DNA of 64,000 nt. Origin: an uncultured Flavobacteriaceae bacterium. Lineage in GTDB: Bacteria > Bacteroidota > Bacteroidia > Flavobacteriales > Flavobacteriaceae. Every line of letters starts with the position of its first letter. The first letter of the stretch is position 1. The notes beneath the pieces were generated by a model. It was not told where the DNA came from and searched no databases. It was given only the letters and a program-made list of their open reading frames with translations. This document shows positions 231 to 12,537 of this stretch, piece by piece. The stretch covers positions 124,001 to 188,000 of the forward strand of contig CANNAN010000010.1 in the NCBI GenBank assembly GCA_947502635.1. The letters run 5' to 3'. Position numbers and translations under genes: made by a program.

Positions 231-272
231 TAAAACTTATCTATAAAGGATAATAAATTGCCTGAAAGGGAT
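231..272 (+). promoter_or_regulatory. tandem direct repeat pair TR1
   Basis: Two adjacent copies of a roughly 20-bp unit lie head to tail: AAAACTTATCTATAAAGGAT at 232-251, then AATAAATTGCCTGAAAGGGA with a final T, ending at 272. The pitch of about 21 bp equals two helical turns. It lies 44 bp upstream of the minus-strand gene starting at 187. Five other pairs of the same family occur in the first 6 kb, all in the same orientation. This is the geometry of an AraC-family binding site; no binding is shown. Confidence 0.55.
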
Positions 273-420
273 TCTTTATTAAATATCTTGATATTTAGCT
301 AATTAAAAACTGGGTAGGTTCATTTTAAAAGTAATTTTTGGACAACCACGAATTAGTACTACCCAGCTTTAGGGGGTGATTATATGTAAATATAAATCGA
401 GTACAAATGTAGATGAAGGG

Positions 421-459
421 AATTAACTTTCAAGGAATAAAAATTGTCTGAGAGGGATT
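421..459 (+). promoter_or_regulatory. tandem direct repeat pair TR2 (degenerate)
   Basis: The second unit AAAAATTGTCTGAGAGGGAT (439-458) matches the family consensus AAAACTTGTCTGAAAAGGAT well. The first unit, at about 421-438, is weaker and shorter (it keeps TTAACTTTCAAGGAAT). It is a lower-scoring member of the same repeat family, in the noncoding stretch upstream of the gene starting at 187. Confidence 0.4.
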
Positions 460-596
460 AAGTCTTCTTGAAATCTAAAAAAAAACTGATATATACGTTG
501 TTTGCTCAATCAAGTTGGTATAGGTTTATTTAATTTGTGCTTGTATTTCGGTAAGCTAAGTAAAACAGAGTCGTTTTAAATTGTCTTTTTAGTTTT

Positions 597-671
597 AATA
601 TTAATTTCAGCTACGCTCAATCTCCAAAATCCCTATAAAATGGTGGTTGGGCGCAACTGAAATTTAATATC
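597..671. repeat. REP-like inverted repeat H1
   Basis: A long imperfect inverted repeat has arms at 597-622 and 645-671. The inner arms read CAGCTACGCTCAATC and GGTTGGGCGCAACTG. The outer arms are AATATTAATTT and AAATTTAATATC. Arm differences are mostly transitions that could still pair as G-U in RNA. Related hairpins occur at 811-890 and 3787-3858. The CTACGCTCAA core resembles the interspersed REP-type palindromes common in Flavobacteriaceae genomes. Confidence 0.65.
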
Positions 672-692
672 AGACTACGCGAATATCGATGA

Positions 693-733
693 TAAGATTT
701 AACTAAAAAGGATTAAAACTTATCTGAAAGGGA
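693..733 (+). promoter_or_regulatory. tandem direct repeat pair TR3
   Basis: Unit one is AAGATTTAACTAAAAAGGAT (693-712). Unit two is AAAACTTATCTGAAAGGGAT (714-733) after a single T. The pair follows hairpin H1 by about 20-30 bp, the same order as H2 with TR4 and H3 with TR5. So hairpin plus tandem pair looks like one duplicated composite element. Confidence 0.55.
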
Positions 734-810
734 TGTTTTATGATCTGTTAATGAGGGTGTTATTGTTTGAAAAAGGTTTTGTTTACAGTTGAACTCAACT
801 TAGCATAACA

Positions 811-890
811 TTTTTTGTTTCGGCTACGCTCAATCTGCAGAATCCAATTAGATGGTGATTGGGCGCAACCGAAGTCAAAAAGACAAAAAA
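811..890. repeat. REP-like inverted repeat H2
   Basis: The arms are TTCGGCTACGCTCAATC (819-835) and GATTGGGCGCAACCGAA (857-873). They are extended by TTTTTTGT (811-818) and ACAAAAAA (883-890). Fourteen of the 17 core positions are strictly complementary and the rest are transitions. It is the same family as H1 and H3, and it sits in the noncoding stretch 3' of the receptor gene. Confidence 0.65.
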
Positions 891-917
891 TTACTAACCG
901 AAACAAAGATCGAGGAT

Positions 918-958
918 CAGACTTAGTTTAAATGGATTAAAACTTGTCTGAAAAGGAT
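918..958 (+). promoter_or_regulatory. tandem direct repeat pair TR4
   Basis: Unit one is CAGACTTAGTTTAAATGGAT (918-937). Unit two is AAAACTTGTCTGAAAAGGAT (939-958), taken here as the family consensus. It lies about 28 bp beyond hairpin H2 and 27 bp from the 3' end of the receptor gene. It is therefore not a promoter of that gene, but could act on the gene at 1-187 or on antisense transcription. Confidence 0.55.
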
Positions 959-984
959 TTTACAGTATTCTATTTGATATGTTC

Positions 985-3648
985 TTAGAAATTATTAAAC
1001 TTCCAATTGAAACTTAGCATAAAGTATTGATTAAGAACTTTGCTTTGAGAATCTTGGATGTAGTTTTTTGTGGCAACACGCCTCACATTTGTGTTTTGAT
1101 TTAATAAATCGTAAACCTTTAAAGATAGAGTTCCATGGTCTTTAAGCATCGTATAGGCCAAGGTTGTGTCCCAAAACCAGGCACTTTTTTGAAATCCTTC
1201 AGCAACGTTTGGATTATAGTTAAAGCTAATATCATGCCGCCATTCTAGTTTTTTAGGAACAAATGTTGTTATTTTTAACCCCGCTGAATGATTAATAAAC
1301 TCCTGATCTTTAAAGTTGTCCAAGTCAAATGTAGTTTTGTTAAACGATAATCTGTAATTTGGTACAACCATCATAAGATTATCCCATGTAAATGTGATAC
1401 CAAGATGAGGTGTTAAGCCTGTGTTGTTTGAAACATATTGCACATCATTGTTGAAGTTAACAGTTCTATTAATATTGGAAGACAGCCCTATATTATATTT
1501 AAATGTTTTTAAGGAATCAATCTTTACCGTCTTATTATAACTACCACCTGCATTCAAACTATAACCTCCGTTTACATTAGCATAGCTTGTGTTTCTTACA
1601 AAATTAGCATCAATAGTTGTTTTAGTAACGACCTGATTGTTATCTAAATTAGCATATATATGACCAAAGAACCCACTACGTTTTTGAAAATTGAATGCAT
1701 TATATCCAAAATAAAAATGGTGCATATTTGTGGGTTTTAAATTAGGGTTGCCAGTGACCGTATTTAAAGGATTAGAGACGTCTTTAAAGGATTGTAATTG
1801 AGATAAATGAGGCGGAGTGTTATCTAAGCCATAACTAGCATAGATATATGATTTTGGGTTAAATTGATATTGAAAATTTGATCGCAATTCTACAGTTTCA
1901 AAATGACGAGTTAAATTTAAATAAGGTCTTAAAAAATCGCTGTTTTCTAAGGACCTAAATACATACCCTATTTCAGAATTAACAGACCATTTTTCTTTTT
2001 TATATGTTAGCCTTAAAGCTGGCGTGCTCCGTATGTTTATATATTCAAAATCTGTACTCAGTTCTTCATTAAATAAAGTGAAACCTTGTGTGTCTGTATC
2101 AAAAGCATAAGTGCTTTTTATATTTTCTTTTTTGTCATGTCTGTAACTAAACTTAAGATCTAAAAACAAGTTTTTTGTTATTAGTGGCCATCTAAAAGTC
2201 GTAGTAGTATAAAAGCCTTTTGATTTTTGGTTGCTATCTGTAAATAAGTCTCTATTGACTTCTTCTGGGGCATCCCCAAAAATACTAGTTTTAGAGTTTA
2301 AATAATTATCGGTTTCGGTGGTTTCGTACTTGTTTGACATATTGAATTTAAAATAGGAACCATTTTTACCAAATCGTTTCGTGACATCCAAATGGTTGTT
2401 AAAGTTTTTATTTGTTGTTTCAGCGAATGAAGATAAATTGGATTGATTTGTTATGATATTTTCTTCATTTCTAGAAATTTCACTTCCAACGGTTTCTATT
2501 TTGTTTTTAGAGGCATTTAATGATGGAGTGATATTGATTAAAAGTGTAGAATCAACGTTGATATTAAACCCTAAATGGGTGCCATGGTTTTTACCTTCAC
2601 TATACGATTTTGTATTGGAATTGCTAGTATATTTTGAATCTGGAAGTATATTGACTTGTTGTGTTATATGTTCATTTTCTGAACGTGTACCTGAAAAAAA
2701 ATAGTTGGCAGAAATGTCATGCCTTTTTCTCAATTTATCAACATAATTGGCTCCGTAATTTTGAGATATGGTGATGCCTTCTCCACTAGTAAGACCGCCT
2801 CGAAAACTAAATCCAGGCGAATTTATATTGTTCCCTCCAGCAAGAAGACTTATCCGTTGATCGTTATCAAAAAGATTAAGCATACCAGCAAATTCATAAC
2901 GTTTTTGAGTTCCTGTACCAGCTGCTATTTGCCCAAAAACACCATCGTTATTTTCCTCTTTTATAACAAGGTTGACTGTTTTTTTTTCTTTATCACCTTC
3001 ATCTCCAGCGAACGCTTCTGCTTTAGTTTTTGTATCTGTGATTTGAACGTTATCAATAATTTCTTTACTTAAATGCCTTGTTGTTATGGTAGGGTCATTA
3101 CTAAAAAATGGTTTTCCATTTACTAGAATATTATCTACAGCTTTTCCATTTATAGTTATTTGTCCTGTATCATCAACTTCTACTCCAGGTAATTGCTTTA
3201 ATAAATCTTCGACATTTGCATCTTTTTTAGTTTTAAAAGAAGTGGCATTAAACTTTAAAGTGTCTTTTTTTATAACAACAGGAGGGCTTACTTTTATAAG
3301 GACTTCCTCTAAAGCATTAAGGTCTGTCTTTAAATTAATAGTACTTAAATCAATGATTTTTGTGTTTAAATGAATAGTTTGATAGTAGGTTTTATATCCC
3401 ACATACGAAATGTAAAGGTTTAAGCGATTATCTGCCGTTTTACCTTCTAAAGAAAACTGGCCATTTTTATCTGAAATAGTATAAGTAACTAAAGTGCTAT
3501 CTTTAACATGTTCTAGATGTATAGTTGCTGCCTCCAAAGCAATTTTATCGTCTTCAGTTATTAACGTTCCAAAGATTTTAAAAGGTTTCGTTTGTGCGAA
3601 AGATACCGTTACGCAGAGTGATATATATACAAAAAAACAGTATTTCAC
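985..3648 (-). CDS. outer-membrane beta-barrel receptor (TonB-dependent-receptor-like)
   Basis: 887 residues. A signal peptide (about residues 1-19, ending SFAQ) is followed by a carboxypeptidase-regulatory-like beta-sandwich (about 22-110, with the DKNGQFSLEG signature), a TonB plug-like domain (about 120-215, with LLKQLPGVEVDDTGQITING), and a long beta-strand-rich part to the C-terminus (OMP_b-brl_3 type), ending in an aromatic residue. I expect an outer-membrane transporter or scaffold; the substrate cannot be read from sequence. There is no SusD partner and no TonB box that I can point to with confidence. Repeat pair TR5 and hairpin H3 lie in its 5' region and H2/TR4 just 3' of it, suggesting control shared with the AraC-type gene upstream. 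Confidence 0.85.
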   Translation of the reverse strand: MKYCFFVYISLCVTVSFAQTKPFKIFGTLITEDDKIALEAATIHLEHVKDSTLVTYTISDKNGQFSLEGKTADNRLNLYISYVGYKTYYQTIHLNTKIIDLSTINLKTDLNALEEVLIKVSPPVVIKKDTLKFNATSFKTKKDANVEDLLKQLPGVEVDDTGQITINGKAVDNILVNGKPFFSNDPTITTRHLSKEIIDNVQITDTKTKAEAFAGDEGDKEKKTVNLVIKEENNDGVFGQIAAGTGTQKRYEFAGMLNLFDNDQRISLLAGGNNINSPGFSFRGGLTSGEGITISQNYGANYVDKLRKRHDISANYFFSGTRSENEHITQQVNILPDSKYTSNSNTKSYSEGKNHGTHLGFNINVDSTLLINITPSLNASKNKIETVGSEISRNEENIITNQSNLSSFAETTNKNFNNHLDVTKRFGKNGSYFKFNMSNKYETTETDNYLNSKTSIFGDAPEEVNRDLFTDSNQKSKGFYTTTTFRWPLITKNLFLDLKFSYRHDKKENIKSTYAFDTDTQGFTLFNEELSTDFEYINIRSTPALRLTYKKEKWSVNSEIGYVFRSLENSDFLRPYLNLTRHFETVELRSNFQYQFNPKSYIYASYGLDNTPPHLSQLQSFKDVSNPLNTVTGNPNLKPTNMHHFYFGYNAFNFQKRSGFFGHIYANLDNNQVVTKTTIDANFVRNTSYANVNGGYSLNAGGSYNKTVKIDSLKTFKYNIGLSSNINRTVNFNNDVQYVSNNTGLTPHLGITFTWDNLMMVVPNYRLSFNKTTFDLDNFKDQEFINHSAGLKITTFVPKKLEWRHDISFNYNPNVAEGFQKSAWFWDTTLAYTMLKDHGTLSLKVYDLLNQNTNVRRVATKNYIQDSQSKVLNQYFMLSFNWKFNNF

Positions 3649-3899: not shown

Positions 3900-3940
3900 A
3901 AAACTTAACTCAAATGGATTAAAACTTGTCTGTAAAGGAT
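3900..3940 (+). promoter_or_regulatory. tandem direct repeat pair TR5
   Basis: Unit one is AAAACTTAACTCAAATGGAT (3900-3919). Unit two is AAAACTTGTCTGTAAAGGAT (3921-3940). It lies 252 bp upstream of the receptor start and 117 bp beyond the 3' end of the AraC-type regulator gene. With H3 it makes up most of the recognisable content of the 409-bp gap 3649-4057; nothing coding was seen there. Confidence 0.55.
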
Positions 3941-4057
3941 GTAATATTGAATATAATAGGACGTAAGTACTTAGATTTAGAGCTAAGAGTTTAGTATTTG
4001 GTGCTTGTTAATAGGTCTTTAGTCTCAGAATTTAATTACTAAACACTTAGGAGGGCT

Positions 4058-5065
4058 TTAATATGTGTCTTTAATATCTGGGTTTTCATTGGATTGTTTT
4101 CTTAAATCTCTTGGCGTATATCCATACTTTTCCTTGAAAGCTTTAGAGAAATGAGGAGCGCTTATAAACCCAGTGACATGTGCCACTTCTTTTATCGACG
4201 TATCTGTATGTTGAATTAAAACACTCGCTTTTCTCAATCGTTCATTTATTAAAAAGCGAAAGACGGTTTGGCCATATAATTGTTTGAACCCATACTTTAA
4301 TTTATATTCATTAGTTCCAAAAGAATGTGCTAACTCAATTAATGGAGCAAGGGGCTTATCTAAATTATTTATAATATGATCATGTACTTCTCGGATTTTC
4401 CTAATATCAATAAAACTTAAGTTTAGCGGTTTACTTTTATTACTGGCATGAGATGGCTTAGCCATTTTATCTTTTCCAGAAGTCACTAATTTTCGTAATT
4501 CATTTTCTCTTTCTGAACTATTTTTAATAATTTCTATAGATGTAATCACGATTCTTTCCGATGATTGATTAATTCGATCGACAAATTTGCTTACCAGACA
4601 ACTTGTTGTTAAAATTAACTGTTGTTTGGTTTTAAAAGATAGTGCAATAAACTCCTCATGAGTATCTAGATTAGCACTCATTAATTTTGATTTTAAACCA
4701 CTCCAGGCTAATTTTGAATCTTGGGTTAGGAATGTAGAAAAATCTTTGTCATGCAATTCATTATCATCAAAAAGTAGCATTTGTTTAATACGCGTATTAA
4801 AAGCTATAATAGTATCTTTTGTATCCAGTACAAAGAACATTTGAACCAGATGTTTGTATGTTTCATTTAGGTTTGCATAGCCTTGATGTAGAAAAGAAGA
4901 TTTAATTTCTTCAAAGGTCATATTAACTAGTGCGGTTAGTGCTTCAATGTCATCGTCCAAATCAGATCGTTCAATTTTGTACGCAAAGTTCCCACTGGCA
5001 AATTCCATAAGCATGGTATGAATTTGCTTTATTCTTTGTTTGTTTTTAGTCGCTTTATCACCCAT
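4058..5065 (-). CDS. AraC-family transcriptional regulator with HAMP/PAS-like N-terminus
   Basis: 335 residues. The C-terminal 105 residues form a paired helix-turn-helix of the AraC/XylS family: IREVHDHIINNLDKPL, the first HTH around LAHSFGTNEYKLKYGFK, then IKEVAHVTGFISAPHFSKAF and the closing KYGYTPRDLRK. The N-terminus has no cupin sugar-binding domain. Residues about 10-60 (LMEFASGNFAYKIERSDLDD) look like a HAMP segment, and residues about 65-180 look like a PAS sensor (VLDTKDTIIAFNTRIKQML). There is no transmembrane helix, so a cytoplasmic sensor-regulator is likely. AraC proteins bind direct repeats about 21 bp apart, which matches the TR pairs on both sides of this gene. That this protein binds them is inference. 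Confidence 0.85.
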   Translation of the reverse strand: MGDKATKNKQRIKQIHTMLMEFASGNFAYKIERSDLDDDIEALTALVNMTFEEIKSSFLHQGYANLNETYKHLVQMFFVLDTKDTIIAFNTRIKQMLLFDDNELHDKDFSTFLTQDSKLAWSGLKSKLMSANLDTHEEFIALSFKTKQQLILTTSCLVSKFVDRINQSSERIVITSIEIIKNSSERENELRKLVTSGKDKMAKPSHASNKSKPLNLSFIDIRKIREVHDHIINNLDKPLAPLIELAHSFGTNEYKLKYGFKQLYGQTVFRFLINERLRKASVLIQHTDTSIKEVAHVTGFISAPHFSKAFKEKYGYTPRDLRKQSNENPDIKDTY

Positions 5066-5186: not shown

Positions 5187-5567
5187 TTATTTGGAAATAT
5201 GGTTATTTAGAAAATTTAAAGCTCCATATTCTTCAGTAAATATCTGAGTTGTAATTGCTGGATTACTGGTTTTAACATAAAAACCAGATATCGTATTCGT
5301 TAATGGATTGTTGACTAATAAAGCAACCGCTTTAATTAGGGTAGAACCTTCTATTGCTAAGTAGTTTCTAGCACTTTTACTTACGCTTTTAACACCTCTC
5401 ATATCACAAAGAATTAAAAACTCTTGACCTTTTTGTAATAAAAGCCTGTCTTCAACAACTCTCATGGCAACAGATTGATCTATAGAGATTCCATTTTTGT
5501 AAACAAAATAAAGAATATCTTTTTCAATCCAGAACTTAGCGTACTCGTTTTCTATATGATTTATCAA
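5187..5567 (-). CDS. small STAS/SpoIIAA-like protein (DUF7793 type)
   Basis: 126 residues, soluble, with no signal peptide. The pattern ENEYAKFWIEKDILYFVYK, then VVEDRLLLQKGQEFLILCDM, and later a segment with an aspartate before LNNHISK, resembles a Bacteroidota family of SpoIIAA-like single-domain proteins (DUF7793), in which a beta-sheet platform precedes a helix carrying KSARNYLA. Relatives are usually found beside regulators or sensor proteins. Here the gene is about 120 bp upstream of the AraC-type gene on the same strand, so the two may be co-transcribed. The function is unknown; a partner-switch or scaffold role for the regulator is only a guess. Confidence 0.6.
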   Translation of the reverse strand: MINHIENEYAKFWIEKDILYFVYKNGISIDQSVAMRVVEDRLLLQKGQEFLILCDMRGVKSVSKSARNYLAIEGSTLIKAVALLVNNPLTNTISGFYVKTSNPAITTQIFTEEYGALNFLNNHISK

Positions 5568-5911: not shown

Positions 5912-5953
5912 TAAAACTTGTCTTAAAAGGATAAAAACTTACCTGTAAGGGAT
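5912..5953 (+). promoter_or_regulatory. tandem direct repeat pair TR6
   Basis: Unit one is AAAACTTGTCTTAAAAGGAT (5913-5932). Unit two is AAAAACTTACCTGTAAGGGA with a final T (5933-5953). It lies 133 bp upstream of the ATG of the synthase-acyltransferase gene at 6086 and in the same direction as that gene. It is the only recognisable element in the 518-bp gap 5568-6085, where no coding sequence was seen. Confidence 0.6.
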
Positions 5954-6085
5954 TTTTTATAATGTCCTTACATCGATACATGAAATTAGTCCGTAAATCT
6001 TTATAGTTTTACATAGTTCCATGATTTGGTTGTGGAGTATACTTACCTTTCTATAAGCATATTAATAGTCTAAATACACTTTAAA

Positions 6086-8506
6086 ATGGCAAAAATTAAA
6101 CACAATAATTTTCTGGATACTGTTAATGAAGTGTTTACAGATGCGAAAGAACAAGGCGTATTGCACTTATACGCAGAGGGAGATAATTTTACGGGAAGAA
6201 AAATAAGGGTGAAACAAAAAGATCTTTTTCATTTCGGAACAACTGGTTATTTAGGTTTAGAACAGGATAAGCGCTTAAAAGCAGCAGCGGTGGATGCTAT
6301 TTCTAGATATGGAACACAGTTTCCACTTTCTAAAAGTTATATTTCAAATCCGCTATATCGCGAACTAGAAGAGAAGGTTACTCAGTTGTATGATGCACCT
6401 ATTATTATTACTAAAAACAGTACCTTGGGACATCTAGGAGTTATCCCTAGTGCTGTTAATGATGGCGATGCTATTATTTTAGATCATCAGGTTCACTGGA
6501 GTGTACAAAGTGCAGCAAATGTGCTTAAAACCCGTAGTGTGCCTATTGAAATGATTAGACATAGCCACCTTGATATGTTGGAAGATAAAATCAAAAAACT
6601 ATCCTCTAAATATAAAAAGATCTGGTATATGGCCGATGGCGTTTATTCCATGTATGGCGATGTAGCTCCCATTGACGAGCTCATGCAGTTGTGTAATAAA
6701 TATCCGCAGTTACATTTGTATTTGGATGATGTTCATGGTATGAGTTGGGCAGGTAAACATGGTACAGGTTATGTGCTTAGTAAACTAAAGGAATTGCCCG
6801 ATAATATATTGTTGTTTGGAACCTTAAGCAAAACGTTTGGAGCCAGTGGTGCTGTGGCTGTATGCACGCATAAGAAAAGATACCATAAAATTAAAACTTT
6901 TGGAGGACCTTTAACTTTTTCAGCACAATTAGAGCCAGCTTCTGTTGCTGCAGCAATTGCATCTGCCAGTATTCACCTTTCTCCCGAGATTTATATGCTC
7001 CAAAATGAGCTGTTAGAGCGAATAACATTGTTTAACACATTATTAGCTGAAACAGATTTACCTTTGGTTGAACAAAATAACTCTCCAGTATTCTATATTG
7101 GCACAGGGATGCCAGTTACTGGATATAATTTTGTAAATAGATTGATGAAAGAAGGCTTTTTTGTGAATTTAGGAATTTTCCCCGCTGTGCCTGTTAAGAA
7201 TACAGGTGTGAGGATAACTATCTCTAGGCATAATCAAGCTGAAGAAATAAAAAGTCTGGTAGATGCTATGGTTTACCACTACCCGAAAGCTTTAGAGGAT
7301 ACACATACCACACCAGATAAAGTAAGGCACGCTTTTAAATTACCCGTTTTGAACGTAGTGCCCAAAAATAAAATTGTTGAGGGGTTTCGTATTGAATATG
7401 AAACGACTATTCAAAATATTGATAAAGATGAATGGAATAGACTTATGGGGAAGCAAGGTGTATTCGATTGGGATGGTCTACTTTTTCTTGAAAATGTCTT
7501 TACACAAAATGAGCTTTCTGAAAATAATTGGGATTTTCATTATATCCTTATCAAGGATGAGGCGAATACTCCGATAATAGCTACATTTTTTACATATGCC
7601 TTATGGAAAGAAGATATGCTTGCACCAATTTCTGTTTCCATTAAATTAGAGGAAATACGAAAAAAGGATCCTTATTATTTAACCTCTCATGTGTTGGGTA
7701 TGGGGTCTCCATTTACTGAAGGAGAACATCTCTATTTGGATAAATCGCATTCTCATTGGAAATTAGCAATGAAACAGATGTTAAATAAAATTGAAGATCT
7801 GGAACAGCAATTTAATTCAAATTGGGTGGTGTTGAGAGATTTTGAACACAATGATCAACTGAGCCAATTATTGCATCAACAGGGTTTTATTAAGACTGTG
7901 ATGCCCGATTCGTGTCAAGTACTTGATCTTTCTTGGGAAACTATGGATGATTATCCAGAATCATTGTCTACGCGTTCCAGAAAACACTTTAAAAAAGATA
8001 TTAAGCCTTATGAAGATCGTTTTAAAATAGTATTTAATGAAGCACCAAACCAAAAACAAGTAGATCAATTTTATGAGTTATACAGTAATGTAAATAAACA
8101 TAATCTTGCTTTGAACATGTTCCCTCTGCCAAAAAAACTATTTACCATGATGTCCCAACATTCTAATTGGGAGTTTTTAACACTTTATTTAAAAGAGACC
8201 TTTAATAAAGGAAAATCACATCTACCAGTGGGTGTTATGTTTTGTTACAAAAATTTGGGAGCAACATATACGCCAGCTTTTATTGGTATGGATTATGATT
8301 TTACCGATGAGCATCAGATTTATAGACAGTTATTATACCAAACAATAAAACGAGCTACAGCACATGGGTTTAAAAAGATAGATTTTGGTATGACAGCATC
8401 TTTTGAAAAGAAAAAAGTGGGAGCGACTATTATTCCTAAATCAGCTTATATACAAGCGAAGGATAATTTTTCTTTAGAGTTAATGGGGGTTATGGAAAGT
8501 AATTAG
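6086..8506 (+). CDS. alpha-oxoamine synthase fused to FemAB/GNAT-type N-acyltransferase
   Basis: 806 residues, about twice the usual length of an alpha-oxoamine synthase. Residues about 1-410 are a complete PLP fold-type I synthase of the SPT/KBL/AONS group: FGTTGYLGL near 50, DDVHGMSW with Asp214 and His217, and the Schiff-base lysine 249 in GTLSKTFGASG. Residues about 430-806 form an acyl-CoA N-acyltransferase (FemAB_like/GNAT) domain, with STRSRKHFKKDI near 630, then GATYTPAFIGMDYDF and KIDFGMTASFEKKKVGA near the end. Such a fusion would condense an amino acid with an acyl thioester and then N-acylate the product, as in ceramide or sulfonolipid synthesis. The bacterial ceramide synthase of Caulobacter is, as I recall, also of the GNAT superfamily. 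The actual substrates are not known. There is no membrane segment or signal peptide. Confidence 0.8.
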   Translation: MAKIKHNNFLDTVNEVFTDAKEQGVLHLYAEGDNFTGRKIRVKQKDLFHFGTTGYLGLEQDKRLKAAAVDAISRYGTQFPLSKSYISNPLYRELEEKVTQLYDAPIIITKNSTLGHLGVIPSAVNDGDAIILDHQVHWSVQSAANVLKTRSVPIEMIRHSHLDMLEDKIKKLSSKYKKIWYMADGVYSMYGDVAPIDELMQLCNKYPQLHLYLDDVHGMSWAGKHGTGYVLSKLKELPDNILLFGTLSKTFGASGAVAVCTHKKRYHKIKTFGGPLTFSAQLEPASVAAAIASASIHLSPEIYMLQNELLERITLFNTLLAETDLPLVEQNNSPVFYIGTGMPVTGYNFVNRLMKEGFFVNLGIFPAVPVKNTGVRITISRHNQAEEIKSLVDAMVYHYPKALEDTHTTPDKVRHAFKLPVLNVVPKNKIVEGFRIEYETTIQNIDKDEWNRLMGKQGVFDWDGLLFLENVFTQNELSENNWDFHYILIKDEANTPIIATFFTYALWKEDMLAPISVSIKLEEIRKKDPYYLTSHVLGMGSPFTEGEHLYLDKSHSHWKLAMKQMLNKIEDLEQQFNSNWVVLRDFEHNDQLSQLLHQQGFIKTVMPDSCQVLDLSWETMDDYPESLSTRSRKHFKKDIKPYEDRFKIVFNEAPNQKQVDQFYELYSNVNKHNLALNMFPLPKKLFTMMSQHSNWEFLTLYLKETFNKGKSHLPVGVMFCYKNLGATYTPAFIGMDYDFTDEHQIYRQLLYQTIKRATAHGFKKIDFGMTASFEKKKVGATIIPKSAYIQAKDNFSLELMGVMESN

Positions 8507-10494: not shown

Positions 10495-12537
10495 ATGAAT
10501 AAAAGAATAGTGACTTTATTATTGTTTTTACTTGTTCAATTTTCCTTATTTGCCCAAGATACTAGTAATGAACCTAGAAATCATTGGCGTATTTCTGGCG
10601 ATGCAGAGATTACTTTCAATATAGATAATCAAGATAATTTGCCTTATACCGATAATATTGAAATGGCGGGTAAACGTGTTGCAGGTATTATTGAATATAG
10701 TATAGATGATAAAGGAAAACTGTCTTTAAATAGAAAAATATTTTTTCCACAATTACATGAATTTAAAACATCAGAAGATACATGGTTTCATGATTATAGA
10801 GCTTATTTAGAAGGGGAGTATACCGACGCATTGCTGCCAAAGCTTTATATAAAAAATGAGCAATTTGTTCCAGGAATTATAAAAACGGTTTCCATAAATG
10901 GGATACTCAATTTTGTACACCATCCGTCTAAAAATGGATTACTATTATCCCGATCACTTTTCCCATCCATGGACGAACGGCTTTTTACAGAAATGTGGAC
11001 CATAAAAAATACTACAGATTCCGTTATGAAGATTCAAGCTGGTAATACATCTCTTGAATTTAATGATTATGGTTCTAAAGGAAAATATAGCAGGCGTATT
11101 CAGACCAATGCACCTGAAAGTATCGTGTTAAAGCCTGAAGAAGAAATGTCATTTTCGTTGACAATAGCTGCTAAGACTTCTGAGGAAAAGTACCCAGAAG
11201 AAGCAGTTAGTAAAACTTTATCAAAGCGAAAAGCATTTATAGACTTAATGGCAGGAGCATTACAACTTGATACACCAAATCCTGCATTAAATACCCTATT
11301 TGAATTTTCTAAAATAAGAGCATCAGAAAGTATTTTTGAGTCCGAATTAGGTTTAATTCATTCCCCTGGAGGTGGTCGTTACTATGTAGGTATATGGGCA
11401 AATGATCAAGCAGAATATATCAATCCGTTTTTTCCATATTTAGGCTATGCTATCGGTAATGAATCTGCAATGAATACATTTAGGGCATTTGCGAAAGAAA
11501 CTAATTCTGAATATAAAAAAATTAGATACGCGTTCGAAATTGAAGGTTTGGTAAAACCTTTCTTAAAGGACCGAGGAGATGCAGCAATGATTGCATACGG
11601 AGCAGCACATTATGCTATGGCACTTGGCGATACCCGTATTGCTAATGAGTTGTGGCCACTTATAGAATGGTGCCTGGAATATTGTAACAGACAACTTAAC
11701 GAGGAAGGTGTTGTCTTGTCTGAGACTGATGAAATGGAAGGAAGAATAGAAACTGGGAACGCAAATTTATCGACATCGTCATTATATTATGGTGCACTAA
11801 ATCATGCCAAAGACTTAGCAAAATCTCTTCATAAATCGAAAATATTACAAAATAAATATGGAGAACAAGCAAGTAAACTTCGCGTAGCCATAGAAAACTA
11901 TTTTGGAGCTACCGTAGAAGGTTTAGATACGTATAAATATTATAAAGAACACAAATATTTACGTCATTGGATTTGTCTTCCTTTAGTAGTTGGTCTTAAT
12001 AAAAGAAAAGACGCTACCGTTGAGGCGCTGTTTAATCGTCTTTGGACAAATAATGGTGTTCATGTCGAAAAAAATAGTGATGATGAAGCCATTACTAAGA
12101 TCTTTTGGGATCGTGGCACCTTATACGCCTTGCGTGGTACCTTTGCTTCTGGCGAGACAAAGAAATCTTTAGAAAAACTAGAGCAATTTTCAGAAAAAAG
12201 ATTGTTAGGAAATAGAGTACCTTATGTCGTTGAAGCATTCCCAGAAGGTAATATGGCACATTTATCTGCAGAAAGCGCTTTGTATTGTAGAGTTTTTACC
12301 GAAGGTGTTTTTGGTATCACGCCTAGAGGGCTTAATAGTTTTACTTGCACACCCAGACTACCTGAAAACTGGGACTATATGAATTTAAACAATATCAAGG
12401 CATTTGGAGAAGATTTCAGCATACAAGTAAATAGAGCAGGAAAACAAATAAAAGTAAAAGTGTTTAAAAGTAATGGTAAAGTAATACTCAACAAGAAAAT
12501 TACTAAAGGAAACTCAGTAAACGTAACATTTAGATAG
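10495..12537 (+). CDS. secreted six-hairpin glycosidase-like protein
   Basis: 680 residues with a cleavable signal peptide (residues 1-21, ending LFAQ). An N-terminal beta-sandwich (about 25-245) precedes an (alpha/alpha)6-type domain: IHSPGGGRYYVGIWANDQAE near 300, FLKDRGDAAMIAYGAAHYAM near 365, ETDEMEGRIETGNANLSTSS near 420. A C-terminal beta-domain carries GITPRGLNSFTCTPRLPENW. The layout fits GH78/GH95-type six-hairpin enzymes, and the acidic residues in NDQAEY and ETDEMEGR are candidate catalytic residues. I cannot assign a CAZy family. It ends only 23 bp from the convergent lacI gene, so both may be read against each other's 3' ends. The context suggests a role in feeding uronate-type sugars to kdgK-eda. 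Confidence 0.7.
   Translation: MNKRIVTLLLFLLVQFSLFAQDTSNEPRNHWRISGDAEITFNIDNQDNLPYTDNIEMAGKRVAGIIEYSIDDKGKLSLNRKIFFPQLHEFKTSEDTWFHDYRAYLEGEYTDALLPKLYIKNEQFVPGIIKTVSINGILNFVHHPSKNGLLLSRSLFPSMDERLFTEMWTIKNTTDSVMKIQAGNTSLEFNDYGSKGKYSRRIQTNAPESIVLKPEEEMSFSLTIAAKTSEEKYPEEAVSKTLSKRKAFIDLMAGALQLDTPNPALNTLFEFSKIRASESIFESELGLIHSPGGGRYYVGIWANDQAEYINPFFPYLGYAIGNESAMNTFRAFAKETNSEYKKIRYAFEIEGLVKPFLKDRGDAAMIAYGAAHYAMALGDTRIANELWPLIEWCLEYCNRQLNEEGVVLSETDEMEGRIETGNANLSTSSLYYGALNHAKDLAKSLHKSKILQNKYGEQASKLRVAIENYFGATVEGLDTYKYYKEHKYLRHWICLPLVVGLNKRKDATVEALFNRLWTNNGVHVEKNSDDEAITKIFWDRGTLYALRGTFASGETKKSLEKLEQFSEKRLLGNRVPYVVEAFPEGNMAHLSAESALYCRVFTEGVFGITPRGLNSFTCTPRLPENWDYMNLNNIKAFGEDFSIQVNRAGKQIKVKVFKSNGKVILNKKITKGNSVNVTFR

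Follow-up and report, generated by a model that had tools for sequence, protein, structure and literature searches.

Alpha-hydroxyketone signalling in Vibrio and Legionella is represented by CqsA/CqsS and LqsA/LqsS, respectively, in which the gene for a synthase of the alpha-oxoamine synthase (AOS) type adjoins its own sensor genes; the sensor kinase CqsS has transmembrane segments. A stretch of 64,000 nucleotides from an uncultured Flavobacteriaceae bacterium (assembly GCA_947502635.1, contig CANNAN010000010.1, positions 124,001 to 188,000 of the forward strand; referred to below as the window) carries a gene in which an AOS is fused to a second half with a predicted FemABX-like GNAT fold, and divergent sensor genes lie upstream of it. 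The fusion resembles CqsA and LqsA in adjoining its own sensor genes and differs from them in its low score against the CqsA-type model NF005526 (63.6 bits, with a cut-off of 428), its extra transferase half, its DUF7793 partner, the kinases of the fused loci, which mostly have no transmembrane segments, and the AraC output in the window. By analogy with CqsA/CqsS, we give a roughly even chance to the locus being a signalling cassette that would work in the same manner, with a bifunctional N-acyl-aminoketone synthase under a dedicated sensor and an N-capped product.

Other described systems that can be compared with the locus are the conjugative elements of the CTnDOT type, which carry RteC, the cysteate fatty acyltransferase SulA, which shares the AOS family and its catalytic residues, the FemABX proteins (FemX, FemA and Sbb17), whose tandem GNAT fold is predicted for the C-terminal half, and the ceramide route of Spt, YghO (aca) and Epi. 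According to PMC9386255, YghO is the acyl-CoA N-acyltransferase (aca) of E. coli, and N-acylation was proposed to come before reduction in Caulobacter; the likeness to the fusion is an AOS step and an N-acyl step, possibly before reduction.

Conservation and distribution of the fused gene

The fused gene and its two halves were located as follows.
6086..8506, + strand: AOS/FemABX-GNAT fusion (open reading frame of 806 aa with ATG start; Pfam, alignment and substitution rates)
6086..7297, + strand: AOS half, residues 1-404 (pyridoxal phosphate (PLP) lysine Lys249, with His137, Asp214, His217 and Arg376)
7298..8503, + strand: predicted FemABX-like tandem GNAT half, residues 405-806 (structure model, Foldseek and Acetyltransf_6)

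The sequence-only reading of the window had proposed one 806-residue protein joining an AOS to a GNAT/FemAB-type transferase, and the open reading frame, Pfam and the alignment agree on it. Aminotran_1_2 was matched at residues 47-393 (expectation value, E, 1.3e-24) and Acetyltransf_6 at residues 630-773 (E 1.4e-8). The best 80 of 179 loci from a scan of genome contigs, with 57-91% identity, were used as the set of relatives, 79 of which belong by their record titles to Flavobacteriaceae and one to Flammeovirgaceae. The fusion is conserved: 103 distinct full-length sequences, among them that of the window, were aligned. Purifying selection was indicated by ratios of nonsynonymous to synonymous substitution rates (dN/dS) of 0.054, 0.068 and 0.057 against three relatives of equal length, with values of 0.018-0.037 for the N-terminal half and 0.095-0.101 for the C-terminal half against the same relatives. 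Since 80 loci of such identity were found and dN/dS against the three relatives is low, the fusion is no assembly accident, and it is confirmed as a real and conserved protein.

A search across Bacteroidota, as suggested earlier for this gene, gave a match (E 1e-60 or better) in 8 of the 296 genomes of an evenly drawn phylum sample, with the N-terminal half only in genome G037 and a disrupted copy in genome G057. In an evenly drawn sample of the family Flavobacteriaceae, 34 of 299 genomes were matched. With the stand-alone AOS of G037 as the query, 52 of 295 class genomes were matched, three Flavobacteriaceae included; the 30 loci returned from this class search comprised 13 fusions with a full C-terminal half, 16 stand-alone AOS (424-446 aa) and one locus (L198) without a called AOS open reading frame. 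The fusion is not rare and is present in other families of the class too. In a tree of 39 N-terminal halves and 3 outgroups, the fused and stand-alone forms are split by one change (support 82). The sole match among 72,556 plasmid records was an AOS from Mesorhizobium, with 48% of the query covered.

Sensor genes beside the synthase

The divergent sensor genes, the direct repeats and the mobile context of the relatives are additions to the sequence-only reading. The sensor genes of the window are as follows.
5187..5567, - strand: DUF7793 of predicted SpoIIAA/STAS-like fold, divergent from the fusion (Pfam PF25056, E 2e-44)
4058..5065, - strand: PAS-AraC regulator, divergent, upstream of the fusion (AraC part above the Pfam cut-off, PAS part below it)

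The DUF7793 model had a predicted local distance difference test (pLDDT) value of 91.4 and matched 2q3l with E 1.6e-5. The sensor gene of the window encodes a PAS-AraC protein and not a kinase. Among the best 80 of the 179 loci, DUF7793 is in reach in 79 and the PAS-AraC gene in 75.

For the comparison outside Flavobacteriaceae, 46 of the 58 match rows from the class search were extended to longer stretches (25 fused and 21 stand-alone loci, L121 included), the 12 omitted rows including three Flavobacteriaceae. The 25 fused loci, which represent 22 genomes and 14 family codes outside Flavobacteriaceae, have DUF7793 at most two genes away in 24 cases, a histidine kinase at most three genes away in 22 and a response regulator at most four genes away in 19. 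Kinases make up 25 of the 136 genes within three genes of the synthase and 5 of the 165 further off in these stretches (Fisher p 9e-6), and DUF7793 makes up 33 of 136 and 3 of 165, respectively (p 7e-10), both p values being too small because the loci are related. In locus L213, where the PAS, HisKA_3, HATPase_c, Response_reg and GerE domains were confirmed, the DUF7793 and kinase genes share 4 bases, and 12 bases lie between the kinase and the regulator.

The N-terminal region of PAS-AraC also occurs in histidine kinases that adjoin the fusion in other families. In 14 of the 25 fused loci, a profile built from the first 200 residues of 74 PAS-AraC sequences matched a kinase at most six genes away, with an E no higher than 1e-10 and a coverage of 150 positions or more; the top kinase match in other families had E 7.2e-31, and five more fused loci were matched weakly or in part. 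By these profile matches, the sensor part is common and the output part has been exchanged in these 14 fused loci.

Beside the stand-alone AOS, a kinase was found by profile within three genes in 9 of the 21 loci and DUF7793 in none of the 21. Ten kinases were found by profile at the stand-alone loci, eight with 4-5 hydrophobic segments and two with 2-3 in a crude scan. One of these loci (L121:7652-10574) has a stand-alone AOS adjoining a membrane histidine kinase of 479 aa, an arrangement like that of cqsA and cqsS.

Direct repeats between DUF7793 and the fusion

The repeats and the outer-membrane protein gene in the left part of the window are as follows.
5916..5933, + strand: direct repeat 1, putative operator (repeat profile)
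5937..5954, + strand: direct repeat 2, 21 bp after repeat 1 and about 130 bp before the fusion start (repeat profile)
3903-3920 and 3924-3941, + strand: second direct-repeat pair, before the outer-membrane protein gene
985..3648, - strand: OMP_b-brl_3 outer-membrane protein, putative regulon member
235..959, + strand: repeat pairs at 235/256, 421/442 and 697/718 and a single site at 942-959, left of the outer-membrane protein gene

The repeat consensus is AnTTGTCTnnAAnGGATT, and its two copies between DUF7793 and the fusion are 21 bp apart, which is the spacing of AraC half-sites. A pair with a spacing of 19-24 bp was present in 59 of 80 regions (79 loci and the window), against a mean of 0.05 and a maximum of 1 in 20 shuffles. 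A profile trained on the 69 regions outside the window clade found the 21-bp pair in 11 of the 11 window-clade regions, and in this cross-training the reversed and reverse-complemented controls gave 0. Independently of any profile, a shift of 21 was the best self-match in 67 of the 80 regions (ties counted), including 13 of the 23 regions without a profile pair. When 1.63 Mb was scanned, 120 pairs were found, 59 between DUF7793 and the fusion and 21 between a MauE gene and PAS-AraC, and most of the remaining pairs adjoin the outer-membrane protein gene or its neighbour c30; none of the 120 is flanked by rteC, susC, susD or a labelled Tra gene.

The AOS half

The PLP lysine recognised earlier, Lys249, together with His137, Asp214, His217 and Arg376, is identical in at least 102 of the 103 distinct full-length sequences. 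The same five positions are kept in E. coli Spt and in two proteins of this genome, the glycine C-acetyltransferase (KBL) and the SulA orthologue, and we take this Lys/His/Asp/His/Arg set to be the residues that matter in the AOS family. By the PLP lysine and the other four residues, the N-terminal half belongs to that family. All 11 NCBIfam models that it matched, those of SPT, KBL, BioF, ALAS and CqsA type included, scored below their curated cut-offs: the top model was subfamily PRK07505 (270.6 bits, cut-off 342), and the bits and cut-offs were 146.6/500 for SPT, 158.6/426.45 for BioF, 137.1/460 for KBL and 96.2/338.55 for ALAS. By these scores the half matches no named enzyme. The closest solved structure was 8xha (E 7.3e-34), named Alb29 of Streptomyces albogriseolus in PMC11906848; Alb29 differs from the fusion as a 401-residue chain without a second half.

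The C-terminal half

The C-terminal half was modelled from 44 sequences with a mean pLDDT of 89.7, and Foldseek gave FemX and FemA as the top matches (E 4.3e-12 to 3.5e-11, template modelling (TM) score about 0.5, root-mean-square deviation 6-7). For FemX (1ne9), the values were E 4.3e-12, TM score 0.50/0.58 and deviation 7.0, and further matches were Sbb17 (3.3e-10) and, lower, N-myristoyltransferase (2.8e-8). On this model the half is predicted to be a FemABX-like tandem GNAT; it differs from FemABX proteins in an identity of about 10%, the TM score of about 0.5, the lack of a significant sequence match in the PDB (best E 0.62) and the fusion to an AOS. Against YghO no similarity was detectable (hhalign probability 0.3%), a weak test with one YghO sequence.

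FemX, FemA and Sbb17 are users of aminoacyl-tRNA, and the C-terminal half might likewise use it for a secreted antimicrobial or peptidyl-ketone metabolite, with the sensor as a production switch. That the top fold matches are of this kind agrees with such a product, as does the best solved match of the N-terminal half, which is the S. albogriseolus protein Alb29 according to PMC11906848. An acyl-CoA user, N-myristoyltransferase, is however also among the fold matches, and the scanned conserved neighbour clusters showed no recognisable gene for export, immunity or tailoring, so that we regard a metabolite of this kind as quite improbable.

Other AOS genes of the genome and the lipid question

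When the window's own genome (G000) was searched with the fusion, four further weak matches were obtained. These are a glycine C-acetyltransferase above the curated cut-off (L126), a SulA orthologue (L127; E 2.8e-217 to cysteate-C-fatty acyltransferase), a stand-alone relative of the C-terminal half (L124; BLASTP E 3e-10, no Pfam match) and a second unusual fusion (L125:4434-7124, - strand, contig C13; 896 aa), in which a monooxygenase/halogenase-like FAD_binding_3 N-terminal half precedes an AOS C-terminal half.

Because the SulA orthologue is present as a separate gene in the same genome, the fusion is probably not the sulfonolipid enzyme of this organism. The sequence-only reading had proposed an N-acylated amino-ketone lipid, like ceramide or sulfonolipid, or a diffusible signal. 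An N-acylated amino-ketone as lipid or signal still fits, and membership of the ceramide or sulfonolipid pathway is weakened by the NCBIfam scores, by the separate SulA and by a C-terminal half unlike YghO. The earlier remark that no reductase adjoins the fusion held: no reductase, acyl carrier protein or acyl ligase was recognised among the neighbours, not all of which were scanned against a library. The locus thus differs from the ceramide route in the fusion itself, in the second half and in the lack of a recognised reductase or carrier nearby.

The fusion may nevertheless be an inducible gene for a membrane or outer-membrane lipid, by which an N-acylated keto-sphingoid (like ceramide or sulfonolipid) would be made in response to envelope, redox or surface conditions perceived by the PAS sensor. 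An AOS and an N-acyltransferase follow the order proposed for Caulobacter in PMC9386255, and no reductase would be needed between the two steps, since N-acylation would come before reduction. The same repeats also stand before MauE and outer-membrane protein genes, which points to the envelope. Against these points stand the separate SulA, the lack of a recognised reductase, carrier protein or ligase among the neighbours, not all of them scanned, and the lack of YghO similarity, and we hold the lipid to be possible and somewhat doubtful.

Mobile context of the relatives

In 55 of the best 80 of the 179 loci, rteC is the next gene on the same strand after the fusion, with a median gap of 30 nt and a gap of at most 50 nt in 41 of the 55; because the gaps are short, co-transcription is likely. 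One rteC member matched Pfam RteC with E 2.7e-61. Within 10 kb in the 80 loci, SusC or SusD was found in at least 62, Tra genes in at least 32 and any element gene in at least 57, these counts being lower bounds since many loci end early. One element was read from end to end in genome G103 (contig of 4.1 Mb). It spans about 97.7 kb and is bounded by copies of a 17-bp repeat, with the 3' end of a tRNA-Asp gene forming one copy; between the two ends a further exact repeat, of 20 bp, was detected. MobB relaxase and TraG were above the cut-offs in this element and TraK, TraM and MobC below them, and a tyrosine-recombinase-like gene (below cut-off) adjoins the repeat at the tRNA-Asp end. The relatives resemble CTnDOT-type elements in these respects, and the window's genome differs from such elements in that an RteC search of it gave no match. 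Comparison of ten fused loci of the class-level set with the Flavobacteriaceae gene clusters gave no match to an rteC or Tra cluster.

The RteC family was matched in 51 of 149 sampled genomes of Flavobacteriaceae, and by hand count these 149 genomes hold 70 near-full-length RteC genes; a fusion immediately precedes 13 of these genes. Thirty RteC loci were read: rteC is preceded by the fusion in 6 of them and by another gene in the rest, apart from 2 where the contig stops short of that gene. Across these elements (L134-L163), the gene directly before rteC varies and its position looks like a cargo slot. As this gene varies, the adjacency of rteC is weakened as proof of a functional link, the genes in question being judged from sequence. 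The fusion could then be pure fitness cargo of conjugative elements without a link to transfer, the rteC adjacency marking an insertion slot, and the absence of rteC beside any repeat pair agrees with this. The short gaps to rteC, which make co-transcription likely, count against it. The probabilities for and against pure cargo appear to us evenly balanced, and cargo would be compatible with the signalling cassette proposed above.

The copy in the window is chromosomal and has no rteC, and it has PAS-AraC, DUF7793 and the repeats. Derivation of this copy from an element was considered, and the trees and approximately unbiased (AU) tests are compatible with either direction. In the first tree, the window clade lay among rteC-bearing copies, and its placement as sister of all other ingroup rows was not rejected (AU p 0.57; that tree was slightly better). 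With a nearer outgroup, it was sister to the rteC-bearing L023 (support 96 by the Shimodaira-Hasegawa-like approximate likelihood ratio test, SH-aLRT), and a basal place was not formally rejected (p 0.085).

Several further loci were observed. A disrupted fusion copy in two open frames adjoins rteC in L122 (G057:C1), and Aequorivita antarctica has three fusion copies with rteC in one genome (L032, L033 and L036), which suggests several elements per host. Upstream of the window, L123:184-13089 of G000 carries SusC-SusD-TlpA-type genes, DUF6520, two MauE genes, a second SusC and another DUF6520, in an order that resembles the relatives in RteC elements. In the window itself, positions 10495-12537 (+ strand) encode a 680-aa protein without a Pfam match, adjoining a trehalase/MGH1-like glycosidase gene.

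Discussion

From the family and its residues, the N-terminal half would be expected to join an amino acid to an acyl thioester in a decarboxylative condensation that gives an alpha-aminoketone, and from the predicted fold the C-terminal half would then acylate or aminoacylate the reactive amine. A dedicated sensor probably controls expression; in the window it is represented by PAS-AraC and its SpoIIAA/STAS-like partner DUF7793, which probably act at the 21-bp-spaced repeats ahead of the fusion and at further genes of the module. We infer the chemistry, the owner of the operator and the role as a signal. A small-molecule signalling cassette is proposed because the synthase, DUF7793 and the sensor stay together while the sensor output (a histidine kinase and a response regulator elsewhere, AraC in the window) and the genome context (chromosome or conjugative element) change.

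Several observations weigh against this proposal. A sensor beside an enzyme is equally expected for an inducible lipid gene. The sensor region is common to 14 of the 25 fused loci and not to all, and 0 of the 21 stand-alone loci reach the profile mark; 12 of these 21 have no kinase within three genes by profile, though two of the 12 (L219 and L221) have one by BLAST cluster. In a crude hydrophobicity scan, 23 of the 25 kinases near fused genes have no transmembrane segment, unlike CqsS. In L128 and L129, two diverged fusions of Flavobacteriaceae, DUF7793 and a kinase are both absent. The repeat profile was trained on the regions that it scored, and when it was trained on the 11 window-clade regions, the 21-bp pair was found in 16 of the 69 others. 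The repeats run with the fusion and opposite to the transcription of MauE and c30, which they also precede, so that at the fusion the repeats may serve the promoter on either side. None of the nine testable fused regions outside Flavobacteriaceae has 21 bp as the best shift, and the repeats therefore go with the AraC form.

To our knowledge no autoinducer of this chemical kind is known in Bacteroidota (no search was made for exactly this), and among literature titles and abstract openings none was found that names an AOS-GNAT fusion or an AOS beside rteC. It is conceivable, and in our estimate unlikely, that the locus represents an unrecognised quorum-type signal of Bacteroidota, an N-acylated alpha-aminoketone that would be made by the fused enzyme and read by the PAS sensor with DUF7793, and that conjugative elements of Flavobacteriaceae took it over, so that synthesis and rteC-driven excision would rise together.

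If the gene serves only an inducible lipid, the fusion may still give one-gene access to a new N-acyl aminoketone. The position before rteC offers a way to ask whether the elements listen to a chemical signal before moving, and the retention of DUF7793 and a sensor by this synthase in 14 family codes outside Flavobacteriaceae makes it a concrete candidate for signalling that can be tested directly.

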